Shown piece after piece: positions 6,427-28,340 of a stretch of DNA of 64,000 nt. Within the stretch, counting starts at the first letter, position 1. Each line of letters begins with the position of its first letter. The translations under genes and the position numbers were made by a program. The stretch is from Candidatus Sumerlaeaceae bacterium (GTDB taxonomy: Bacteria; Sumerlaeota; Sumerlaeia; Sumerlaeales; Sumerlaeaceae). The stretch lies in the NCBI GenBank assembly GCA_019695055.1, contig JAIBAT010000053.1:1-64000 (forward strand), written 5' to 3'. The notes under the pieces were generated by a model. It was not told where the DNA came from and did no database searches. It saw only the letters and a list, made by a program, of their open reading frames with translations.

Positions 6427-7374
6427 ATGGCAAGAGTTAGCAATGGGCATTACTTATCTGGGATTATCATTTTTTTTCTCATATTTTTAACTGCTCCTTC
6501 TAGGCTGTCAGCACAGTACAAGGGACCCAAAGGAAAAGGTGTCTGGATCACAAATGTTGAGGATGCAATTCACGCTATTAATGATTATGCCGTCCGGCCG
6601 GGCCTCCCCATGACAACCGTGGAGGAATTGGCAACTTACCTCAATGAAAAGGGAATCACGTGGGTTGGTGTCAAATGCTCGGGCGGAGATGAAAAACGCC
6701 CACAATTTAATCAGAATTTAGTCAAAGCTTTTGCAGACAGCGGCATTTCCACCTATGGTTGGCATCTGTTTACTGGGGATAAGGATGCAAAAAAAAATTA
6801 CCCCGGCTCGCCGCCCGAATACCAAGCGGCGTTAGCGGCCAAGCAAATAAACGACGCCAGCGCCGCCGGCTTAATTGTCGCGCCTTATTACTCTGTGTAT
6901 TTTAGCGCCAATAAACAATATCCAGGCAGCGAACAAAAATACGCTGAACGATTTCTAGACGAGTTGAGGCGAATTGGATACTCTGGAGAATTGGGGTTTT
7001 CCGCCATCATTAGCCAAAGCGACGACATATTTGATCCATGGAATTATGGAACTCCGCCTGTGCCCAGCCACCGATTCAATTTTTGCTTTTTAAAGAAAGT
7101 GAATACAGACTTTGTCTGCCCGCGTTTCTTTTGGACCAAACGCGACAATCAAATGACTCACTACAACGAGGTTTCGAACAAGCATGACAACCTCTGGAAG
7201 CAACTGGGATCAAGACTTGTGCCACTCGGTCAGGCAAATTACGATGTGGCGGGGAAGGGTAACTATATTGAAAGTTTTGAGAACAAAGCCAAGGCAATCT
7301 CCCAAGTCAAGGGTTGGGCGTTGTGGGATTTGGACCATTTTCAATCGGAAGACTTTGCAAATTACTTGAAATGA
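6427..7374 (+). CDS. Secreted TIM-barrel-like protein, possibly glycoside-hydrolase-like (GH25-like)
   Basis: A 315-residue protein with a signal peptide: hydrophobic GIIIFFLIFLTAPS, then a cleavage region near LSAQ at about residue 30. The mature part alternates strands and helices in a TIM-barrel-like way: KGVWITNV at the start, GITWVGVKCSGGDEK, GISTYGWHLFTGD, GLIVAPYYSVYF, ELGFSAIISQ and a final KGWALWDLDHF. The layout recalls GH25-like or DUF1906-like barrels, but I cannot identify the catalytic acidic pair with confidence. GGAGG at 6415-6419 is well spaced from ATG 6427. Base composition is lower in G+C than the genes on both sides, suggesting transfer. A small lipoprotein gene follows after 77 bases. 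The function is unproven; extracellular location is the firmest statement. Confidence 0.7.
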   Translation: MARVSNGHYLSGIIIFFLIFLTAPSRLSAQYKGPKGKGVWITNVEDAIHAINDYAVRPGLPMTTVEELATYLNEKGITWVGVKCSGGDEKRPQFNQNLVKAFADSGISTYGWHLFTGDKDAKKNYPGSPPEYQAALAAKQINDASAAGLIVAPYYSVYFSANKQYPGSEQKYAERFLDELRRIGYSGELGFSAIISQSDDIFDPWNYGTPPVPSHRFNFCFLKKVNTDFVCPRFFWTKRDNQMTHYNEVSNKHDNLWKQLGSRLVPLGQANYDVAGKGNYIESFENKAKAISQVKGWALWDLDHFQSEDFANYLK

Positions 7375-7580: not shown

Positions 7581-7728
7581 GATCTATCCCCTTTACCAGT
7601 GGATTGAGTGTGGTGCCCAGGTGCGTGAACTCTGCCCATTGCCCCTTCAAGGCCATTGACTCCAGTAGGGTTATGTTCCTTGATTGGAAGCTGAATAGTC
7701 TCATAATTCTGACAGCGTGATCAGTGAT

Positions 7729-10700
7729 ATGCCAGATAGTTCACCGCTGAATGATTTTCCTTCTGACACCCACGCCTCCTGGCGCCCTGAACCGGGGCCG
7801 GAGATTTCGGAGGCATTTGAGCGCTATCTGAAGGAGACTTCGGCGTATCCTGAGCGGGGGACGGCACTGCCGGAGGGCGTTCCGGTGCCAGGCAGCGGTT
7901 CGGATTCCACCGCGTCGCCGCGGCATGCGGCCTACTTGCTGCGCCGAGTGGTGGCCGAGGGAGGTCACGGGGAGGTCTGGCAGGCGGTTCAGGTTTCGCT
8001 GAACCGGGTCGTGGCCGTCAAGAAGGTCCGCAAGAAGTGGTACGACGAGAAGGCCCAGAACGCGGCGCGGATGCTGGAGCTGGCGTTCCACCGGGAAGCG
8101 CTGGTCACGGGGCGGCTGGACCACCCGACGATCGTTCCGATCTACGACATGGGGGCGGACCAGCAGGGGCGGCCCCTGCTGGCGATGAAACTGGTGGAGG
8201 GGACGGAGTGGACGGACCTCATCGCCGAAGACCGCCACCTGGACCGGGCGGCGTTCTTTGCGCGGCATCTGCCAATCCTGATCTCCGTGGCCCAGGCGGT
8301 GGCGTTTGCCCATTCGAGGGGGGTCATCCATCGGGACCTGAAGCCTTCGCAGGTGATGGTGGGGAAGTATGGCGAAGTTTACCTGATGGACTGGGGTCTG
8401 GCGGCCATCTTCGAGGACCAGGCCGCGCCTCTTCCCGATTCCGCGACTCTCCCCTTCTCGGTGCATGTGAAGGACGCCATCAACCCGGCGGGCACGATGT
8501 GCTTCATGGCACCGGAGCAGACGGAGAACAGCGGGATCCGGCTGGGGCCGTGGACGGACGTTTTCCTATTGGGAGGCACGCTGTACGAGCTGCTGACGGA
8601 CACGCCACCACACAATGACGCGACGTCGCGGGAGGCGTTCGAGAGCGCGCGGCGATGCCAGATTCCCGCGCCGGAGGTTCGGGCGCCGGGGCTGGAGATT
8701 CCGGGGGAGTTGTCGCGGATCGCGATGACGGCGCTGCAGGCGGAGATCGGGGACCGATATGCGTCGGTGATGGAGTTTGTGCAGGCGCTGCAGGATTACC
8801 TGCACGGTACGGGCCGGCGGCGAGAGTCGGTGGAGTTGACGGAGCGGGTGCGGGGGATGCTGGGGGGTGGTGTGTCAGTCGGCGGGCAGAGCACCAGTGC
8901 TGATGCTAGCGGAAGTGTTTCAGCGGGCGAGCCGCCCGCGCTCCCAGCTGCGGCTTCTTCGGTGGACTATCAGGCGCTTTCGGAGTGTGACAATCTGCTG
9001 ACCTCGGCGCTCAATCTGTGGCCCGAGAATCCAGATGCGGGAGACCTTCAGCAAGATTTGCTGGATCGTTTTGCGGAGGCGTCCATCGCGAACAGCGATC
9101 TTGGCCTGGCGCGGTCACAGGTGGTTCGGCTTTCCAACGAATCCAGGCGGGCGGAGCTTGGCCAACAGATTGAAGCCAAAGCAGCGGAGATCCGTAAGTT
9201 GGCCCGACAGCGGCAGTTGGCGATTACCTCAAGTTTTGGTCTCATTATCGTTCTCGGCCTCTTTGCCGCCCTCCTGATATCGCTCTTGGCAAACTGGCGC
9301 ATCGAGAAGCAACAGGCGGAGCAGGCTCAAGCTGTGGCGGAAATTGACGCGAAAGACGCGGAGGAAGAATCCCGGAGAACCCAGGAGCGAACCGCCCGTA
9401 CTGACAAGACCAGCAGCCTGTACCGCGATGAAGCGCAATTGGCGCGGGAACTTGAGGAGGAGTGGCGCCCTCAACTCATCCTGCCCCCGACACTGTCCCT
9501 CGGGGCGTACGACGAGCAGGTCCTGGCCGGAAAGGATCCCGCCCGGCTGGACGAGTTGGATCGCCGGATCGACTCTGTGCGCGCGCAGCGTTCGATTCTC
9601 GATGACGGCACGCTGGCCCCACCTCCGTCCCGCCTGGCCCTGGCCGCCGGTTACATGGCTCTCTTCCGCTCGGCTCACGGGGGGGGCTTGAAGCGGGCCA
9701 GTCTCTTTCTGGGTGAAGCCGCCCGGTTCGGACTCGACAAGGATCTGGCATGGGTTGGCCTCAGCGCAGCGGCTACACAACTCGGGAATTTTGATGCCGC
9801 CGCCAAAGGGATTGAAGAGGCAGCGGACTTCGCCCAGCGTGTCCGGTCGGAGCGCGACTACAGGAAAACCCTGATGCTGGCCTACGAGATCCAGCTGGCC
9901 CGGTATGCCGATTTTCACTTTGGGCCCGAGGACATCCTAATTGAACCGCGTGATCCCAACCGTAAGCAGGGGAGATACTGGGATAATAAGGATGTTTGGA
10001 CAGACGCAGGTGCGCCGTGGGAGCATGCCAAGAGCGCGGCCCCCGGCACAGCACGGGTTCCCGGTTGGGGGGCACGGTTGGTGAGATTCTTCGCGGTATC
10101 CGGTGACGCGAACACGACCCTGCCAGCTTTGGCCAGATACGAGCCGATGCTAAATTCCCGCCGACACCTTTACGTTTATGCAACCTACCCCTTCTCGGCA
10201 AATGCCGCTCCGGTTATTTACACCATTTATCACGCTTCGGGGGAAACAAGCCGGTCGCTTGCCCAGGACGGCTGGGCCGGTGCATGGCGCGGAGGGGCCA
10301 ACCAATGGACCATGCTTGGCGACTACGACTTTGCGCCAGGGGAGAGGCAGGGCCTCGAGATTCGGGCCAATCCGGGAATTACTTTTGTCCGCCCCATCAA
10401 TAATGGCCAGGTGGTCGCAGATGCAGTCGTGTTTTCATCAAAACCATTGGCTGTTGCCACCACCCTTCCCCTCGAGTTTCGCCCACCGGAAGGACAGATC
10501 GTCTGGCAGGGAGAACCCGCCAAAGCCATTGCACAGGCTTTGCACCAGAACAAAAGGGTTCTCTGGTACATTTCGGCCTCCGACTCAAAACACCGGATTT
10601 ACTCGTTTCAGAAAGTCTTCCCTCGCAAGGACATCGTGGACGCAGTGAATTCAAACTTTGTACCGTTGATGTCCTCAATGGAACCACCGACCGCCAGGGA

Positions 10701-10842
10701 CCACGGCCTATCCCCGATGCCGGATGGAACGATTGTCCTTTGCAGTCCAACTGCGGACGGATCCGGGGTCATCATCCAGAAGCCGATCAAGCCCGAAAAG
10801 GGACTGATTCCTGAAGTGCTGTTTAAGGAGTTGGCTCAATGA
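7729..10842 (+). CDS. Transmembrane Ser/Thr kinase with golvesin-like and thioredoxin-like extracytoplasmic domains (paralogue 1)
   Basis: About 1,037 residues. Hanks-type kinase domain (about 70-360): Gly loop EGGHGEVW, VAVKK lysine, HREAL helix-C Glu, HRDLKPSQVMVG catalytic loop, MDWGLA in place of DFG, and FMAPEQ. The loop has Gln where HRDLKxxN has Asn. A single membrane span (FGLIIVLGLFAALLISLL, about 502-522) is followed by a charged coiled coil (about 525-580), a helical TPR-like stretch (about 635-730), a golvesin-like domain (about 735-905: YTIYHASGETS, WTMLGDYDF, VVADAVVF) and a C-terminal thioredoxin-like region (about 930-1035) with no CxxC. ATG 7729 is chosen over in-frame GTG 7717; neither has a strong ribosome-binding site. 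The paralogue follows after 72 bases. Expected role: inner-membrane sensor kinase with its sensing part outside the cytoplasm; ligand unknown. Confidence 0.85.
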   Translation: MPDSSPLNDFPSDTHASWRPEPGPEISEAFERYLKETSAYPERGTALPEGVPVPGSGSDSTASPRHAAYLLRRVVAEGGHGEVWQAVQVSLNRVVAVKKVRKKWYDEKAQNAARMLELAFHREALVTGRLDHPTIVPIYDMGADQQGRPLLAMKLVEGTEWTDLIAEDRHLDRAAFFARHLPILISVAQAVAFAHSRGVIHRDLKPSQVMVGKYGEVYLMDWGLAAIFEDQAAPLPDSATLPFSVHVKDAINPAGTMCFMAPEQTENSGIRLGPWTDVFLLGGTLYELLTDTPPHNDATSREAFESARRCQIPAPEVRAPGLEIPGELSRIAMTALQAEIGDRYASVMEFVQALQDYLHGTGRRRESVELTERVRGMLGGGVSVGGQSTSADASGSVSAGEPPALPAAASSVDYQALSECDNLLTSALNLWPENPDAGDLQQDLLDRFAEASIANSDLGLARSQVVRLSNESRRAELGQQIEAKAAEIRKLARQRQLAITSSFGLIIVLGLFAALLISLLANWRIEKQQAEQAQAVAEIDAKDAEEESRRTQERTARTDKTSSLYRDEAQLARELEEEWRPQLILPPTLSLGAYDEQVLAGKDPARLDELDRRIDSVRAQRSILDDGTLAPPPSRLALAAGYMALFRSAHGGGLKRASLFLGEAARFGLDKDLAWVGLSAAATQLGNFDAAAKGIEEAADFAQRVRSERDYRKTLMLAYEIQLARYADFHFGPEDILIEPRDPNRKQGRYWDNKDVWTDAGAPWEHAKSAAPGTARVPGWGARLVRFFAVSGDANTTLPALARYEPMLNSRRHLYVYATYPFSANAAPVIYTIYHASGETSRSLAQDGWAGAWRGGANQWTMLGDYDFAPGERQGLEIRANPGITFVRPINNGQVVADAVVFSSKPLAVATTLPLEFRPPEGQIVWQGEPAKAIAQALHQNKRVLWYISASDSKHRIYSFQKVFPRKDIVDAVNSNFVPLMSSMEPPTARDHGLSPMPDGTIVLCSPTADGSGVIIQKPIKPEKGLIPEVLFKELAQ

Positions 10843-10914
10843 GGGAACAGCTTGACACCTCTTCGATCGTGAACTGCGATTCAGTGGTAACTGCCCTTTG
10901 CACCAGAGGCGACA

Positions 10915-13900
10915 ATGGCTGAAAACGACGATCCCCTCGGCCCGGGCGCCCCACCGCCGGATCTGCCCAATGACCCTCATTCGTCGCTGCGGCCGCCGTC
11001 CGTGCAGACCTGGGCGCCGATGGATCCCGGGCTTTTCTCCACGGCTCTCCGCGATGCCGCAGTGGCCGGGGATATTAAAGTCGAACCCGGGGATCCCAAT
11101 GCCTTCCTCCTGAGAAAGGAAATTGGCAGCGGTACCTTTGGGGAAGTGTGGGAGGCGGTTCAGGTGGTACTGAACCGTGTCGTGGCGGTGAAGCGCCCCA
11201 AGCCGCCCGAGGGAACCACGGAAGCCGAGCGGGAGGATGCCTCCCGGCTGGCCCAGCTCATCTTTCGCCAGGAGGCACTGACCACCGGGCACCTGGACCA
11301 CCCCAATATTGTTCCTGTGTACGACCTCGGTGCCGGAGCCGATGGTCGCCCGCTGCTGGCCATGAAACTGGTGGAAGGGGTGCCGTGGGACCAGAAGCTC
11401 CGCGAAGATGAGAATGTCGCCCTTGCCGAGCGGCTGAACCGGCACCTTCCCATTCTGCAGCGGGTGGCGCGGGCCGTCGCCTTCAGCCACGCCCGGGGTA
11501 TCGTCCACCGAGACTTGAAGCCCGGGCAGGTGATGGTCGGTAATTACGGCGAAGTCTTCCTGATGGATTGGGGGCTGGCCATGTCCATGCCGGGCCTCGA
11601 GATCGCGGAGGGCCTGCCCGCCACGATGTTTGCAACGCCGCGCGATGTGGCACCGAACCCTGCGGGGACAGTGGCGTACATGGCCCCCGAGCAAACCCGG
11701 CGCTCATCGGACCGCCTCGGCCCCTGGACAGACGTTTATTTGCTGGGGGGCATGCTGTATCAAATCTTAACCGGCACTGCGCCCCACAATCAAGCACGCA
11801 GCGCAGACGCCTTCCAGCATGCGGCGCGGGGCGCAGTGGAGCCACCGGAGGCGCGCAGTCCGGGGCAGGCGATCCCGCGGGAACTCTCGGACCTGTGCAT
11901 GCGGGCACTGGCACCGGAAACCGCGCAGCGAACCCAGACGGCGGAGGACTTCCTGGAATCGGTGGAAGCGTGGCTGAGCGGCGCAACCCGCCGCGAGGAG
12001 TCCCGAGCTCTGGCCACCCAGGCACGAAAGGCACTGGAGACGGCCGCCACGGGCTATCACGAAATTGAGCAGGCGGACGCCCTCATCGTGCAGGCACTGC
12101 AGAATTGGGCTGATAACCCTGAAGCTCGCGAGCTCCAAGGGGAAATCCTATCGCGGTTTGTTTGGGCAGCTCTCGGTAATGGGGATCTCAAACTGGCACG
12201 GGTTCAGGCGGAACGCATCGCCCAGCCGGAGTTGCGGGAGAACATGCGCGCGCAGGTGGGCACGGCTGAGCGGCGAGCGCGGCGCCATGCCCGCCAGCGC
12301 AGAATTGCCCTCGTTGCCAGCCTCCTACTTCTGATTGCGGTAGCTGTGGCAGCCGTGATTTACAGATCCAACGCCGAGGCCATCCGTGTGCAACGGGAGC
12401 AGGCTCAACAGAAGAAAGAGTTGATCTGGGCGGACGTGGATACTCTCTACGCTCAACTCAATCAGGAATGGGAGCAGGAAACGCACTCCCGGATACTTCG
12501 GGATCTCAGGGATGCGACCACCTCCTTCATCAATCGGGTTGCCGCGGAATTGCCATACTCGACAGATCCCCGGCCCACCGACGACTGGCTCTTTGTATTA
12601 CTTTCGGCAAGGCCGGAACTCGCGCGTGATCTTGCCACTTCCCGGACTGAAATCGCCGAACTGCGCCGGCAGGCTCTGGCCGATGGTTCCACCATCGGTG
12701 AAGAACCCTATGAACTTAAGTTGACGGAAGGGCTTCTCAAAATGAGTGATCCCCGGACAACGGCCGGTCTTCTCATTGCGAGGGACAACTTTGAGGAGAT
12801 ATCCACACGATTCGCCAATCGTTTCGAGTTCTGGACCATGCTGGCAGTGGTATGCTCCCGCATTGGGGATTTCCCTGCTGCTAGAAACGCAGTGGATCGA
12901 GCGATGGATGCTGTGAAGCTTGCAAATGGTGAGTGGTTCACTAATATTGTCTTCCTTCGCGCCAACCTATACGGAATGGCGGACCATGCGGAGAAACTTC
13001 GCCCCGGGGACGTTCTGATTGATGTCAATTCCGAGATGGCAGAAACTTCTGGTCCGCGGAGATACAGGGAGATTGCAGGCGAATGGAGAACTGTCCGGGA
13101 CGGCGCCACGCGAAGTTTCGGGACTTTTCTCGATCCTTTTCGGAGCCGGGACGCCAGGGTTATGCGCTTCTATGGCCCTTTCGAAAAGAAGATTTTTGCG
13201 CCGTTACCTGCCCGGGCAAGATTTTATCCCAACTTGACTACGTCTGGCCATTATACGGTTTACACGATCTGGCCGTCCAATGGAAACGCATGGCCGGTCA
13301 ACTACCACATTCACCATGCGGGTGGGGAAACAAGTGTAAGCCTTGTTTACGACGGGTTTGGAATTGAAGGGCCGCCCAACAGCAACCTATGGACGCCACT
13401 TGGTGAGTACCAATTTCTCGCCGGATCCGAGAATTACGTGGAAGTTGAAGTTCCGGCCAATGTGAAGCCCCTAACCTGGGCGCGCCAGGGGGACGTTATT
13501 CCCGATGCCATGTTGTTTGCAGCCCGTCCGTTGACCGTGAAGACCGGCACACCGCGGCTTGCGCCCCCAAGCTTGCCATCCACTGTCACCGAGGACAATG
13601 GAACCGTGCCGGCCCAGTTGCTTTTTGAAAACTCACTGGAAGAGGCCATCCGCCGCGCTGGGACCGCAAAACTTGGCATTGTCGCGATGGTGTATCACCC
13701 CGCCAGCGCAATGTTTATCCATCCGCTGAATGAGAATCGCAATTACGTGGATAACCGGCTGTTCAATAATAACATTACCGTCCCAATTCTTCAAAAGGAT
13801 TACGTGGTGGCGAGGATCAGCCTGATGGAACATCCGGAGACGGTGAAGAAACTGGGGGCACCGGATGCCACAACCAGCCTGTTCATCCTTGGGCCCGATG

Positions 13901-13992
13901 GAAGTGTCCGAAAGATGCTGACGGGGAAGGAACTGCTGATATCGCCGCCGGAATTCCGGGAGATGCTGGAGTCGCTTAAGGCCGCGCCTTAG
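10915..13992 (+). CDS. Transmembrane Ser/Thr kinase with golvesin-like and thioredoxin-like extracytoplasmic domains (paralogue 2)
   Basis: 1,025 residues with the same architecture as the gene before it. Kinase landmarks: GSGTFGEVW near 71, VAVKR near 91, FRQEAL Glu near 120, HRDLKPGQVMV with H198-R199-D200 and Gln205 in place of Asn, MDWGLA near 217, YMAPEQT near 255. Membrane span about 464-483 (ALVASLLLLIAVAVAAVIY), then coiled coil, a helical repeat-like part (about 600-690), a golvesin-like domain (about 697-872: YHIHHAGGETSVSL, WTPLGEYQF, VIPDAMLF) and a thioredoxin-like C-terminus (about 905-1022: TTSLFILGPDGSVRK) lacking redox cysteines. It arose by tandem duplication with strong divergence outside the kinase domain. 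Its 3' end overlaps the convergent FGE-like gene by 17 bases. Confidence 0.87.
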   Translation: MAENDDPLGPGAPPPDLPNDPHSSLRPPSVQTWAPMDPGLFSTALRDAAVAGDIKVEPGDPNAFLLRKEIGSGTFGEVWEAVQVVLNRVVAVKRPKPPEGTTEAEREDASRLAQLIFRQEALTTGHLDHPNIVPVYDLGAGADGRPLLAMKLVEGVPWDQKLREDENVALAERLNRHLPILQRVARAVAFSHARGIVHRDLKPGQVMVGNYGEVFLMDWGLAMSMPGLEIAEGLPATMFATPRDVAPNPAGTVAYMAPEQTRRSSDRLGPWTDVYLLGGMLYQILTGTAPHNQARSADAFQHAARGAVEPPEARSPGQAIPRELSDLCMRALAPETAQRTQTAEDFLESVEAWLSGATRREESRALATQARKALETAATGYHEIEQADALIVQALQNWADNPEARELQGEILSRFVWAALGNGDLKLARVQAERIAQPELRENMRAQVGTAERRARRHARQRRIALVASLLLLIAVAVAAVIYRSNAEAIRVQREQAQQKKELIWADVDTLYAQLNQEWEQETHSRILRDLRDATTSFINRVAAELPYSTDPRPTDDWLFVLLSARPELARDLATSRTEIAELRRQALADGSTIGEEPYELKLTEGLLKMSDPRTTAGLLIARDNFEEISTRFANRFEFWTMLAVVCSRIGDFPAARNAVDRAMDAVKLANGEWFTNIVFLRANLYGMADHAEKLRPGDVLIDVNSEMAETSGPRRYREIAGEWRTVRDGATRSFGTFLDPFRSRDARVMRFYGPFEKKIFAPLPARARFYPNLTTSGHYTVYTIWPSNGNAWPVNYHIHHAGGETSVSLVYDGFGIEGPPNSNLWTPLGEYQFLAGSENYVEVEVPANVKPLTWARQGDVIPDAMLFAARPLTVKTGTPRLAPPSLPSTVTEDNGTVPAQLLFENSLEEAIRRAGTAKLGIVAMVYHPASAMFIHPLNENRNYVDNRLFNNNITVPILQKDYVVARISLMEHPETVKKLGAPDATTSLFILGPDGSVRKMLTGKELLISPPEFREMLESLKAAP

Positions 13993-14908
13993 ACGGGCGC
14001 AGTTCGCCATCAGTGGCATCGCGCGCAATTCTGAAGCCCATGTTGTTCAGGCCGGTGTCGGGGACGTGCATGCGGCGGGAGGAGACTCGGAAGCCGGTGC
14101 AGAAGTTCTCGGAGCAGAGGAAGCTGCCGCCCTTGAGGACGTGGCCCTCGCCGGAGGGGGGGCCGGTGGGATTGGCGCGGGGAGAATGGGCGTAGTAGTC
14201 GGCGCCGTACCAGTCGGAGCACCACTCCCAGACGTTGCCGGTCATATCGCACAGGCCGTAGCCATTGGGTGGGAACTTGCCGACGGGGGCGCGGCGCAGG
14301 TAGCCGTCCTCGAGGGTGTTGGTGTCGGGGAAGTGGCCCTGCCACCAGTTGGCGACGGGTTTGCCGCCGGGGCGCAGGTCGTTTCCCCAAGCGTACTCGG
14401 CGCCGTCGAGGCCGCCGCGGGAGGCGAATTCCCATTCGGCCTCGGTGGGAAGGCGGGCACCGGCCCATTGGGTGTAGGCGGTGGCGTCGTTCCATGAAAC
14501 CTGGGAAACTGGTTCATCGACAGCGGGTTGGGATTTGGGGCCGTCGGGGTGGCGCCAACTGACGCCTTTCATCACGACCCAGTCCCCTTTCTTCACATCA
14601 AACACTTTCGAGGATCCGGCCTTCTCGGTTTGGGTCATGTAGCCGGTCGCTTCGACGAACTTGCGATATTCGGCGACGGTGATCTCATGGCGGCCGATCC
14701 AGTAGGGTTTGAGCGTGACCTTGTGGACGGGTTTTTCGAATTCCTGGCCATGGTCGGAGCCCATGCGGAATGTCCCACCGGGAATCAGGACCATGTCCGG
14801 CTGTGTCGGCGGCGGCGGTGCCTTGCCGGTCTTTGCCGCGGGACATGGAGTGACCAGCGCGAGAAATGCAAGCAGGAGAGAAGTCTGAGTGTTTTTCCCC
14901 CATTTCAT
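13976..14908 (-). CDS. Secreted formylglycine-generating enzyme (FGE/SUMF1) family protein
   Basis: 310 residues. An N-terminal signal sequence (LLLAFLALVTPCPA) is followed by the FGE-sulfatase fold: FRMGSD near 47, HEITVAEYRKF near 74, PVSQVSWNDATAY near 133, RLPTEAEWEFASRGG near 152, CDMTGNVWEWCSDWY near 220 and a C-terminal GFR. GGSFLCSENFCTGFR places Cys265 and Cys270 with the C-x4-C spacing of true formylglycine-generating enzymes, where the pair binds copper and oxidises a sulfatase cysteine. Many bacterial family members lack these cysteines, so real FGE activity is plausible. No sulfatase gene is in the window. The gene converges on the second kinase with a 17-base overlap. ATG 14908 is preceded by GGTGG. 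Confidence 0.85.
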   Translation of the reverse strand: MKWGKNTQTSLLLAFLALVTPCPAAKTGKAPPPPTQPDMVLIPGGTFRMGSDHGQEFEKPVHKVTLKPYWIGRHEITVAEYRKFVEATGYMTQTEKAGSSKVFDVKKGDWVVMKGVSWRHPDGPKSQPAVDEPVSQVSWNDATAYTQWAGARLPTEAEWEFASRGGLDGAEYAWGNDLRPGGKPVANWWQGHFPDTNTLEDGYLRRAPVGKFPPNGYGLCDMTGNVWEWCSDWYGADYYAHSPRANPTGPPSGEGHVLKGGSFLCSENFCTGFRVSSRRMHVPDTGLNNMGFRIARDATDGELRPSKARP

Positions 14909-23936: not shown

Positions 23937-26900
23937 TCAATCGCAGAACTCATCGTACTGGCGTATTTCGATGCGATCCACGGTCACGTTTCCCTTCTCC
24001 AATCCTGTTGGATCCCCCTGACTAAGGGTGTCTATCAGGTCCAGGGAGACAAGAAGATCCCGATTGGAAGTGGCATTAACGCCAGGGCCCGGTTGGCTGG
24101 AAAGCAAAGGCATGGAGGCGGACAGGGGCGTGCCTTGAGGAAACTCCGGGCGAACTGCCGGGTCGAGCGGAGAATGAATGAACAGCGTGTACCACCCACC
24201 GGTGGTGTCGGCCGTCTCCTTGTCGGGATTCTGGGTACCCACGCCCGGCAGGGCCTGCTGGGCAATTGCGTTTGTCAGGCCACCAGCTGCAAGCGCGCCG
24301 CCGACCTCAAACTTTGACGACCAACCAAACCGTGCGGTGCGGGCGCGAAGGCGAACCTGGGAATTGCGATTCGCCTGTTGGGTGGAGGTCAGATGGTAGC
24401 GGATTTTGTAGAGCTTCAGCGGTTCGATCCGGATGCGGGTAGTCAGTGAGCCGGTAGTTCCGTCAGGATTAAAGTCGCGCGAAATGATTCCCACGCGTGA
24501 TGCGCTGACCTGTGACGTGTCCAGTTGCGCTCCGGCAGCGGAATCGAAAAAAATAGGACCGGGTGGAGTGGGGTCAGAGGTGGGGAAAACACCCTCAACA
24601 TTCGAGAGGATGTAGCTGCGGGTTGTCACCTCAGCCTGCGCCATGAGTTTCAGGTCTCCGGCATCGCCGCCTGTTGTCTGGTAGACCTTTAGAGGAGCAA
24701 TGCCGTTGCCCGACTGTGACGCCGGATAGACACCGATAACGGACTGTACCATGTTGATGTAGCCAACCATTTGAGGTTCGAAGGCGTAGGCTTCGAATCC
24801 GCGCATTACTCCCTCAACGTTGGCATTCGACGTGAGGTAGGGAACATCCACCGGGTCAAAATCGAGGCGATAGACGGACGGTTTGGCAGGATCGGTGGAG
24901 GGGGCCAACTCGGAGTAAAGAAGTTCGTTGGGCGCGTCGAGGCCCACGCTGGGGAAGATCTCCTGAAGCCCAGAGACCGCGAAACGATTTGCCAAACGGA
25001 CCCTCACCCCGGGAATCTGGTTTTTCGCCGCGGGATTGGCCTGTCCACTGGCAAAGATGTAAAACTTGCCACGGACATAGTTGGCCGGCCCGATGGAGGA
25101 TTGCGGCAGCCAGTGATCGACGTTCCCAACAATGCCAGAGATGCGGTATCGTGGGTTGGGATTGCCGGATTCGGAGGCCACAAAATTGGTCAATGATCCT
25201 GACGTGGGGTCGAAAGAGGATACGGCAAAACCAGGCGTGTTCATGCCAAAGTAGCTCCACCCATTCAGTGTTCCCGGCGGGCTGATGACTTCCGATGTAA
25301 AGGTATCGTTGTAGACGAGTGCAAAGGTTGTGGGCGGATCGCAGCTATCCAGGACATCGTTGCCATTGCAGTCGAGGGAAGGATTGGAGGCAATCTCGCA
25401 GGTATCGAGCTGGCCGTTGCAGTCACAGTCCAACGAAGGCACGGCAGCAATTTCGCAGGTGTCAATCAGGCCATCGTTGTCGCAATCAAGGGACGGGGGC
25501 GTGGCGAGATCACACACATCGAGCTGGCCATTGTTGTTGCAGTCGTTGCCGGCGATCTCAGCTGAATCGGTAATGCCGTTATTATTGCAGTCCACCATCG
25601 GAGCTGAAACACCAAAGAAATTCATGGTGGCACACATGACCTCACTGCGGGTCGTGGCGTCGCCTATGCACTCGAAAGGAAAGGCTAAATAAACCACCTT
25701 TCCGGTGCCCGAATACTGAACTGCCGCCGTGGTGCCGGGGCCTGTGTACTGGAGCGCAGCGGTGGAACCATTCAGAGGGAGAATGACGTCGGGAGCGTCA
25801 GCGTCGTAGGGCGCACCAGCTGCTGTGGAGAAATTGATGTTTAGACCACTGAAAATACCGCCGCCTACGCCGCCAGCGGCGTAGGATCCGGCATCGTTGG
25901 CGGAGAAGTCGGCCCGCATGGCTGAATTGTAGAACACGGCGCCCTGGCCACCAAGGTCGAGGTCCGCGCCAAATTCGGTGCCAGTAATAAGCAGTTTTCC
26001 TCCGGCAGCGAGGTAGGTCTGAAGCAGTGATTGCTCTGTGGAACTCAGCGTCTTGTTGAAAGTCGATTCCTCGCCTCCAATCCAGACCACGGCGCCATAA
26101 TCGGAAAGAGAGATGGATCCGGAGCTGACAGCCTCGTTGCTGGCCGTGTCAAAGCTTCGGCCACAGGTTTGCAGGGCCTCACCGTGCTGAACGACGTAAT
26201 CGAAGGAATTCATCTGACGCGGCAGGATGACACCAAAGGTTGCCCCCGCGGTATTGGCGGTACTGAGCACGTTCGAGGTGATCACCTCGATGGGTGACAT
26301 CTGGAAATCGAAACGGTCGAAACCGTTGACGACGAGAACTCGCTGCTCCATCGCATTGGCAGGTATGCGCACGCCAATGGTTTCCGACGGAAGGGATTCG
26401 CCGCCTGCATTCGTCGCGGCGACCTGAAAATAATAGTTCTTTTCGCGTGCCAGACCGGAAATGATGGTGGACGTCGTGGAACCACCTGCGACGGCAATGG
26501 GGTTGCTGAATCCGTAGCCATTGGAAGACTGATAGATCACGTAGCCCGTGGCCGCATCGCCACGAGGATAACCGGTCGGTGGCGGTTGCCAGGAAATCGT
26601 CACATTCCCAGACGAGTCGCTCTTTGCCGCAACGTTAGTAGGCGGCTCCGGCAGGAAATTGAGGGGGATGGCTCCGCCGGAGCCATCATTGAGGAACTTC
26701 AGGATGGCGCGATAGGAAGCACGGGCGATGATACGGCGACAGCGGGGATCGCGAAGGAGTAGCGCGTCACGCGAGTCTTCGTGACTGGCCACCTCGCCGA
26801 TGGTGGCGGCCATCTCGTCGTTATTACCGATGTTGGGTGATGAACCAAAGGCGCGAATCTCACCGTAATTGCCGCCGAGGGCACCCTGGGATCGAGGACT

Positions 26901-28169
26901 GATCCAATCGTGCTCAAACGAAACGCCGGAGTCCTCGGCCTCCATGTTGTTTGGGATTTCGTTGCCGACATAGCTGGCGAGCTGGGACTGGCTGGTGGTT
27001 CCGGTGCTGCCGGTGTTGATGTAAAGCCCATAGGTGTTCACGGTGCCGGCATTTGTGTGAAAACTCAGCAGGATGCGCTCCCAAAAGGTGCCCTCTGCCT
27101 CGTTGTTCATGTCGGCGGATTTTCGCGGAGGCGTGCCCACATTGTCGTCACTATCCTTGGTAAAGCCCGGGAAATCGTAGATGTCGCTCGTTATTCCCTG
27201 ACCATTCCCGCGTTGAACCCAATAGCGCGACGCCTCGTACTCGCGAGGAAATCCGGAAACGCCATACCCGCGATCCACATCCCCCATGCCATTGCCGAAA
27301 CGAATGGCATCGGCGATGACCACGCCGGACTCGCCGGGGGCATAATTGGAGATTTCAACATAGCCCGAAGCACCTGCGTTAAAATGAAAATTGCCAAGCC
27401 ACACCCATCCCTGACCCACCCGGCGGTGGTTGACGCGGATATCGCTTTCGCCACCGCTGTGGCTAATGCGGTAGAGTTGTTTGACGCGGTCACCACCCCA
27501 GCGCACCCAGGTGTAGACTGGATAGAACCCACTGACGGGAATGTTTGGGGTATAGCGGGCTGCGGCGGTTTGTGTGGTCGTATCTGTGGAGGCGAAGCGA
27601 TAAGGTACGGGATCGCCGGGATTGCCGTAATAAATGGTCGAAGTCGTATCTGACCACGCGCCCGTATAGTTCACGCCCGGGGACCCATTGTCGAGAACCA
27701 CTTCCTTTAATTGGTGGCCAACGGGACGAAAGGGAACCACGGTCGCCCCTGCGTTTCGGCAGTACTCCACGAAGAAGTTCAACTGCTCAATATTGCCGTA
27801 GTCTTCGACCACGCTGTTGAAGTTTCCGCGTTGTGTGTACCATGTGCGGTCGCCATCAGTGGGCGCGGTGTCGTCCTGGTCTGAAGTCCATCCGTGCCCG
27901 GCGCTGCAATATACGACAACGCCCGATAGGGCACCGGTGGGTTGGGAGTTGGCTGTGGGGTTCAGTGGCGAGAGTTTGGCTGGGGGCTGCATAGTTTTCG
28001 ATGGCTTGGTGGGTGTGTCCCGCCAGTCGATATGCGGTGGTCGATAGATTACGACGGGGCCCGTGCTGGGATCGGTTTCGCCTTCGGCGTGGACAGCGGG
28101 CGGGTGCAGGAATACCATGGATGCCAGAAGTGGCAGACATACCCGCATAAGAGATCGGGGGGCACTCAT
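23937..28169 (-). CDS. Large secreted amidase-like protein with golvesin-like insertion, Fn3 and DCNxNG repeats
   Basis: 1,410 residues from ATG 28169, which has CGGAGAG upstream; an in-frame ATG at 28190 lacks a ribosome-binding site. Signal peptide VCLPLLASMVFLHPPAVHA. Amidase_3-like half 1 (VVYCSAGHGWTSD, then EDYGNIEQLN) is followed by a golvesin-like insertion (about 165-300: YRISHSGGESDI, WVWLGNFHF, VVIADAIRFGNG). Half 2 carries ILLSFHTNAG and GEVASHEDSRDALLL, plausible third and fourth zinc/catalytic positions. Then come an Fn3 domain (about 510-605), a GATase1-like alpha/beta region (about 610-860), DCNNNGITDSAE-type acidic repeats (about 860-960) likely to bind calcium, and a beta-rich C-terminus. 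Similar proteins are often labelled xanthan lyase. It would act outside the cell, on peptidoglycan or another polymer. Confidence 0.8.
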   Translation of the reverse strand: MSAPRSLMRVCLPLLASMVFLHPPAVHAEGETDPSTGPVVIYRPPHIDWRDTPTKPSKTMQPPAKLSPLNPTANSQPTGALSGVVVYCSAGHGWTSDQDDTAPTDGDRTWYTQRGNFNSVVEDYGNIEQLNFFVEYCRNAGATVVPFRPVGHQLKEVVLDNGSPGVNYTGAWSDTTSTIYYGNPGDPVPYRFASTDTTTQTAAARYTPNIPVSGFYPVYTWVRWGGDRVKQLYRISHSGGESDIRVNHRRVGQGWVWLGNFHFNAGASGYVEISNYAPGESGVVIADAIRFGNGMGDVDRGYGVSGFPREYEASRYWVQRGNGQGITSDIYDFPGFTKDSDDNVGTPPRKSADMNNEAEGTFWERILLSFHTNAGTVNTYGLYINTGSTGTTSQSQLASYVGNEIPNNMEAEDSGVSFEHDWISPRSQGALGGNYGEIRAFGSSPNIGNNDEMAATIGEVASHEDSRDALLLRDPRCRRIIARASYRAILKFLNDGSGGAIPLNFLPEPPTNVAAKSDSSGNVTISWQPPPTGYPRGDAATGYVIYQSSNGYGFSNPIAVAGGSTTSTIISGLAREKNYYFQVAATNAGGESLPSETIGVRIPANAMEQRVLVVNGFDRFDFQMSPIEVITSNVLSTANTAGATFGVILPRQMNSFDYVVQHGEALQTCGRSFDTASNEAVSSGSISLSDYGAVVWIGGEESTFNKTLSSTEQSLLQTYLAAGGKLLITGTEFGADLDLGGQGAVFYNSAMRADFSANDAGSYAAGGVGGGIFSGLNINFSTAAGAPYDADAPDVILPLNGSTAALQYTGPGTTAAVQYSGTGKVVYLAFPFECIGDATTRSEVMCATMNFFGVSAPMVDCNNNGITDSAEIAGNDCNNNGQLDVCDLATPPSLDCDNDGLIDTCEIAAVPSLDCDCNGQLDTCEIASNPSLDCNGNDVLDSCDPPTTFALVYNDTFTSEVISPPGTLNGWSYFGMNTPGFAVSSFDPTSGSLTNFVASESGNPNPRYRISGIVGNVDHWLPQSSIGPANYVRGKFYIFASGQANPAAKNQIPGVRVRLANRFAVSGLQEIFPSVGLDAPNELLYSELAPSTDPAKPSVYRLDFDPVDVPYLTSNANVEGVMRGFEAYAFEPQMVGYINMVQSVIGVYPASQSGNGIAPLKVYQTTGGDAGDLKLMAQAEVTTRSYILSNVEGVFPTSDPTPPGPIFFDSAAGAQLDTSQVSASRVGIISRDFNPDGTTGSLTTRIRIEPLKLYKIRYHLTSTQQANRNSQVRLRARTARFGWSSKFEVGGALAAGGLTNAIAQQALPGVGTQNPDKETADTTGGWYTLFIHSPLDPAVRPEFPQGTPLSASMPLLSSQPGPGVNATSNRDLLVSLDLIDTLSQGDPTGLEKGNVTVDRIEIRQYDEFCD

Positions 28170-28340
28170 AAGGCGGACTCTCCGATCCATTGATTAGTAT
28201 CCATGGCTGAATTCCATGTCTGAATTGGGGTGGCTACTGTCGCCGGGAGAGTCAAGGTTTTCCCCTCTCCTTTAGGGGTGAAATAGAGCCTGGGGGACAA
28301 CGAAAACAATCGTGAAAATGCCCTGTGGGGTTTCAATTTC

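Follow-up and report, generated by a model that had tools for sequence, protein, structure and literature searches.

Two neighbouring genes in a 64,000-nucleotide stretch of DNA (the window) from Candidatus Sumerlaeaceae bacterium, a poorly known bacterium of the phylum Sumerlaeota (GCA_019695055.1, contig JAIBAT010000053.1), encode predicted membrane Ser/Thr kinases. The extracytoplasmic tip of each kinase pairs a golvesin-type domain with a thioredoxin-like domain. These tandem, paralogous transmembrane kinases are proposed to be regulated by a glycan bound at the golvesin domain, a reading with a putative ligand and a predicted kinase activity to which a probability of roughly 0.55 is given. 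Judged by the distribution of its homologues, the golvesin-thioredoxin pair is not confined to kinases but recurs in the phylum as a secreted module that is predicted to predate the kinase fusion. For most bacterial receptor Ser/Thr kinases, to our knowledge, the input has yet to be identified. A secreted counterpart, together with a domain family for which glycan binding has been shown, points to a concrete ligand class that is accessible to glycan arrays.

Both open reading frames are intact, lie on the forward strand and are separated by 72 bases. Copy 1 (P0001; 7729..10842, +) encodes 1037 amino acids plus stop when read from its ATG, and an alternative GTG start at 7717 would extend the protein to 1041 amino acids. 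Copy 2 (P0002; 10915..13992, +) encodes 1025 amino acids plus stop. The two proteins share one order: a Hanks-type kinase, one membrane span, a coiled-coil and TPR-like stalk and a golvesin-type domain, ending in a thioredoxin-like part that lacks CxxC. An earlier sequence-only reading had described adjacent paralogues with this order, and open frames, Pfam matches, structural models and profiles all bear it out. That reading had also held that divergence is much stronger outside the kinase core. Identity between the copies is 53% in the kinase domain and 21-35% elsewhere (juxtamembrane region 35%, stalk 21%, golvesin domain 34%, thioredoxin-like domain 24%), as had been claimed. A common order in two diverged, intact copies is evidence against an assembly artefact or chimera, which was ruled out.

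The kinase domains (copy 1, residues 69-360, 7933..8808; copy 2, residues 66-350, 11110..11964) match Pkinase (PF00069) at 106.3 and 104.7 bits against a curated cut-off of 31.7 (E 2.3e-30 and 7.2e-30). The catalytic lysine lies in a VAVK motif (residues 95-98 in copy 1 and 90-93 in copy 2), and both copies contain HRDLKP, DWG and APEQ, the set of catalytic motifs being complete in copy 2. By these motifs, both proteins are bacterial transmembrane Hanks-type Ser/Thr kinases that have kept their catalytic residues and are predicted to be active. The kinase domain is followed by a cytoplasmic helical juxtamembrane region that is conserved across a Sumerlaeota kinase family (8956..9228 in copy 1, 85.5 bits with the juxtamembrane profile; 11935..12315 in copy 2, 160.5 bits). 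Hydropathy and flanking charges predict one membrane span per copy between kinase and ectodomain (residues ~495-517, 9211..9279, in copy 1; residues 460-480, 12292..12354, in copy 2). The N-terminal flank of the span is the more basic one, with RRARRHARQRR standing just before the span in copy 2, and single-module homologues of the tip begin directly behind a signal-peptide-like segment. Both features support a periplasmic location of the tip. The same kinase-span-ectodomain plan is found in the PASTA kinases (PknB/PrkC/Stk1), but the Sumerlaeota pair lacks PASTA repeats. Membership in that group was ruled out because the PASTA kinase model NF033483 (NCBIfam) scores 168-175 bits, far under its cut-off of 450, with a match limited to the first 500 residues. 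PASTA domains have peptidoglycan fragments or lipid II as ligands (PMC5786024; PMC6428115).

Beyond the span, a coiled-coil and TPR-like helical stalk was delimited from predicted helices in copy 1 (residues 525-733, 9301..9927), from the structural model in copy 2 (residues 487-698, 12373..13008) and from a profile of the two stalks. It is followed by a golvesin-type beta-sandwich resembling a carbohydrate-binding module (CBM; residues 734-905, 9928..10443, in copy 1; residues 699-870, 13009..13524, in copy 2) and by the thioredoxin-like domain (residues 920-1037, 10486..10839; residues 903-1025, 13621..13989). AlphaFold2 models of both ectodomains contain helices, a beta-sandwich and a domain in thioredoxin order. 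With a mean predicted local distance difference test score (pLDDT) of 77 and 74 and a predicted TM-score (pTM) of about 0.5, the arrangement of the domains is uncertain, although local confidence is good in the two C-terminal domains. Confidence is best in copy 2, where pLDDT is mostly ~80-96 in the core strands of the golvesin domain and mostly 90-96, except for one loop, in the thioredoxin-like domain.

Golvesin_C (PF25275) matches copy 2 at 33.6 bits, above the curated cut-off of 31.6. For both ectodomain models the top Foldseek match is 6f2p, the C-terminal module of a xanthan lyase (E 1.2e-5 for copy 1 and 1.9e-7 for copy 2), and CBM6/CBM35 structures and many thioredoxins are among the next matches. 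A profile of ten tips searched against PDB sequences finds residues 947-1029 of xanthan lyase at E 3.8e-11, followed by the thioredoxin 2lst at 1.6e-6 and DsbD-gamma. A chance weak Pfam hit as the source of the golvesin match was ruled out by the homologues, the fold and the PDB profile matches. In Pfam, no thioredoxin family matches either kinase directly (Thioredoxin_7, PF13899, gives no match up to E 1). The thioredoxin fold was assigned in both copies from the agreement of predicted fold, tip profile and PDB matches (2lst, 2l6c, 3d21, DsbD-gamma and DsbH), with 2lst and DsbD-gamma as fold matches of copy 1, and 2lst, 2l6c and 3d21 as those of copy 2 (TM-score to target 0.70). According to these models and profiles, the C-terminal 300 residues are two known folds, golvesin-type and thioredoxin-like, rather than one. 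Both folds had been named beforehand, and Pfam, homologues, AlphaFold2, Foldseek and the PDB profile agree with them, with golvesin over the cut-off only in copy 2. Structure prediction and profile search of the C-terminal regions returned neither a single known sensor fold nor unsupported folds.

By Pfam in copy 2 and by fold in both copies, the golvesin-type domain belongs to one family with the golvesin/xanthan-lyase CBD-like domain (PF25275; IPR033803, CBM6-CBM35-CBM36_like_2). The lectins Cbeg4 and Cbeg5, which carry domain type IPR033803, have been shown to bind glycans on an array (PMC9166713). Known proteins of this type, Cbeg4 and Cbeg5 included, are secreted enzymes or lectins, whereas the Sumerlaeota pair are kinases. 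In the glycan-regulated reading, the golvesin domain would bind an envelope, capsule or environmental polysaccharide, and the thioredoxin-like domain, without active-site cysteines, would play a structural role or bind proteins. A bound ligand would alter how the stalk packs or how the protein dimerises across the single span, and kinase activity would change with it. The two copies may respond to different ligands, as had been suggested from their divergence. The divergence is compatible with this suggestion, but the long branches of the module fit diversification and relaxed constraint equally. A further-reaching proposal can be made only tentatively and is on balance doubtful: a lectin-type bacterial receptor kinase may have captured a secreted golvesin-pseudothioredoxin protein as its sensor, with the two copies reading two envelope or extracellular glycans. 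Alternatively, the tip might hold the kinase in position by anchoring it, structurally or by adhesion, to peptidoglycan, glycans or the outer membrane, and the input would arrive via the stalk or from the cell interior. The genome holds many golvesin-type domains (22 Golvesin_C matches), as an anchor would allow, and some members of the kinase family, such as L145, L156 and L167, have very short ectodomains of ~50 residues past the span, suggesting that kinases of this family can manage without a tip. The strongly diverged tips of the two copies are nevertheless better explained by diversification of input than by a common anchor, and an anchoring role is considered unlikely.

The other half of the tip carries little sign of redox chemistry. 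CxxC is absent from the whole length of both kinase proteins, in agreement with the earlier description of a thioredoxin-like end without this motif. Only one cysteine lies beyond the span in each copy, at residue 1005 in copy 1 and at residue 647, within the stalk, in copy 2. The alignment of thioredoxin-like domains leads from WCxxC in distant redox relatives to a lone second cysteine in intermediate proteins, and to SxxS or no such motif in most golvesin-linked proteins, among which SxxC is also found; in both kinases the active-site columns hold no cysteine. The likeness to thioredoxin, DsbD-gamma and DsbH (Thioredoxin_7) is one of fold, and the kinases differ by their missing CxxC. Sensing of redox state or disulfides through this domain could be suggested by the thioredoxin fold and by DsbD-gamma and DsbH among the nearest structures. 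Because the active-site cysteines are missing, the kinase tips are not expected to be oxidoreductases, and redox sensing was ruled out as extremely improbable.

Judged by its architectures, the thioredoxin-like domain appears to accompany carbohydrate-binding-type domains in a non-redox role. It could also be the sensor itself, binding a peptide or misfolded protein as AGR2 binds the IRE1-beta luminal domain. AGR2/AGR3 structures, one of them with IRE1-beta, are among the fold and profile matches, and the domain recurs with another, CBM48-like partner in genes neighbouring the secreted golvesin-thioredoxin gene. The comparison with AGR2 is an analogy only, however, and the golvesin part is better conserved than the thioredoxin-like part both between the copies (34% vs 24%) and among homologues, which makes such a sensor quite unlikely.

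At least eight Sumerlaeota genomes, among them the one studied here, encode the golvesin-thioredoxin pair as a protein of its own. Stand-alone homologues of the tip, ~315-370 residues long and matching over the full length, occur both in other Sumerlaeota and, at C92, in the window genome itself. All six full-length stand-alone homologues tested passed Golvesin_C and three of them passed Thioredoxin_7, the other three remaining sub-cut-off; the best Thioredoxin_7 score among full-module homologues was 37.2 bits (cut-off 27). These secreted proteins (e.g. L086:9291-10322 and L084:12339-13313) show full-length homology to the kinase tip at 26-34% identity. They differ from it in having a signal peptide, no kinase and shorter branches than the kinase tips. 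Their genes adjoin an ABC transporter in several genomes and lie near a CBM48-Thioredoxin_7 gene in two.

Other genes around the secreted module were also recorded. In three genomes (L085, L086 and L089), the secreted golvesin-thioredoxin gene is divergent beside an apparently conserved gene group of ABC-transporter type, whose products are a soluble protein of 330 residues, a membrane protein with five spans and a membrane-anchored protein of 434 residues. Close to the secreted gene, L085:6814-7605 and L086:8231-9040 encode secreted proteins with an AMPK1_CBM/CBM48-type domain and a cysteine-poor Thioredoxin_7 domain, and two short frames of the window genome with this thioredoxin-like domain (C130 and C136) have lengths like those of the CBM48-Thioredoxin_7 genes. 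A secreted protein at L092:1244-2794 combines a pair of golvesin domains with a thioredoxin-like end that keeps one cysteine and a cis-Pro-like VPTF motif.

Among 40 Sumerlaeota genomes, the juxtamembrane profile recovers ~95 kinases from 16, with up to 22 per genome. Most of these, 81 family members, were examined at a module threshold of E 0.1, and only two, the window kinases, carry the golvesin-thioredoxin module. The ectodomains of other members mostly match TPR (35/73) or WD40 (24/73) families. A profile built only from the two stalks picks up five TPR-type kinases of the family at E 1.4e-8 to 4.7e-6, and the matched members run on into TPR arrays; shuffled-stalk controls gave zero matches among the family kinases. 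This stalk match indicates that the tip was probably swapped in. A TPR-type receptor probably kept its kinase, span and stalk, and its distal array was exchanged for a secreted golvesin-thioredoxin protein. The pair would provide a clear case of sensor acquisition, in which kinase, span and stalk are conserved and the tip is swapped. A whole-tip search of the 40 Sumerlaeota genomes found no further frame of >1000 residues holding both halves, and a Golvesin_C search of another kinase-rich phylum (195 genomes) found no kinase fusion in any of 30 loci checked. Within this scope of 81 family members, 40 genomes and 30 loci, the earlier statement that no other kinase is known with the two C-terminal domains holds.

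In the kinase tree, copy 2 groups with a short-ectodomain kinase from a sister genome (99/91), next to which copy 1 is placed (91/83); a topology with the copies as sisters is not rejected (approximately unbiased test, p-AU 0.066). The module tree joins the copies weakly, on long branches. A simple tandem duplication as the origin of the pair is not proven by these trees.

Several observations weigh against kinases regulated by a bound glycan. The fusion of kinase and module was found in no second genome among those searched. The glycine loop of copy 1 is atypical, with A-E-G-G-H-G in place of G-S-G-T-F-G, and Golvesin_C reaches only 23.2 bits in this copy (E 7.8e-5), under the cut-off. The neighbouring genes (an NtrC-type regulator, a weak GH25-like secreted protein and an FGE-domain protein) point to no pathway. 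The module branches measure 2.8-2.9 changes per site against a homologue median of 0.73 (~4x), which could mean decay of binding. These branches and the score of copy 1, together with altered motif residues in the golvesin domain of copy 2 (QDGWG changed to YDGFG), would suit fused tips that are in decay and bind no ligand. Such decay is improbable, however, since the frames are intact, the GC content at third codon positions (GC3) is coding-like and the models predict a fold of good local confidence for each tip.

Receptor kinases of a similar design are known from another phylum, and in related phyla it is common for such kinases to bear rare accessory domains. In Planctomycetota, transmembrane Ser/Thr kinases have been described with periplasmic TPR, WD40, SUMF1 and DUF1080 domains, and that study reports 105 accessory domain groups, approximately half of which are confined to a single protein in a single species (PMC11032199). 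The Sumerlaeota pair shares with these proteins the cytoplasmic Hanks-type kinase, the usually single span, the exchangeable C-terminal periplasmic domain, the family expansion and the many single-occurrence accessory domains, but a golvesin and thioredoxin-like tip is not among the accessory domains named in the sections of the study consulted (PMC11032199). Since exchangeable periplasmic domains are already described there, the claim of an undescribed system was too strong; what is new in the pair is the tip, whereas the design is known (PMC11032199), and the pair does not establish a new kind of system. In a search of the golvesin literature, no listed title concerned bacterial kinases. New are the probable secreted-module origin of the tip, the Sumerlaeota kinase family, the link between stalk and TPR, the restriction of the module to two of 81 members and the loss of cysteines.

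Three further genes of the window can be noted. A secreted protein with a sub-threshold GH25 match only is encoded at 6427-7374 (+), 342 bases upstream of kinase copy 1. The convergent gene at 13976-14908 (-), whose 3' end overlaps kinase copy 2, encodes a secreted protein with an FGE-sulfatase domain, a domain type already described in the periplasmic portion of other bacterial kinases (PMC11032199). Further downstream, 23937-28190 (-) encodes a 1417-residue protein with a strong Golvesin_C match (96 bits) and fn3.

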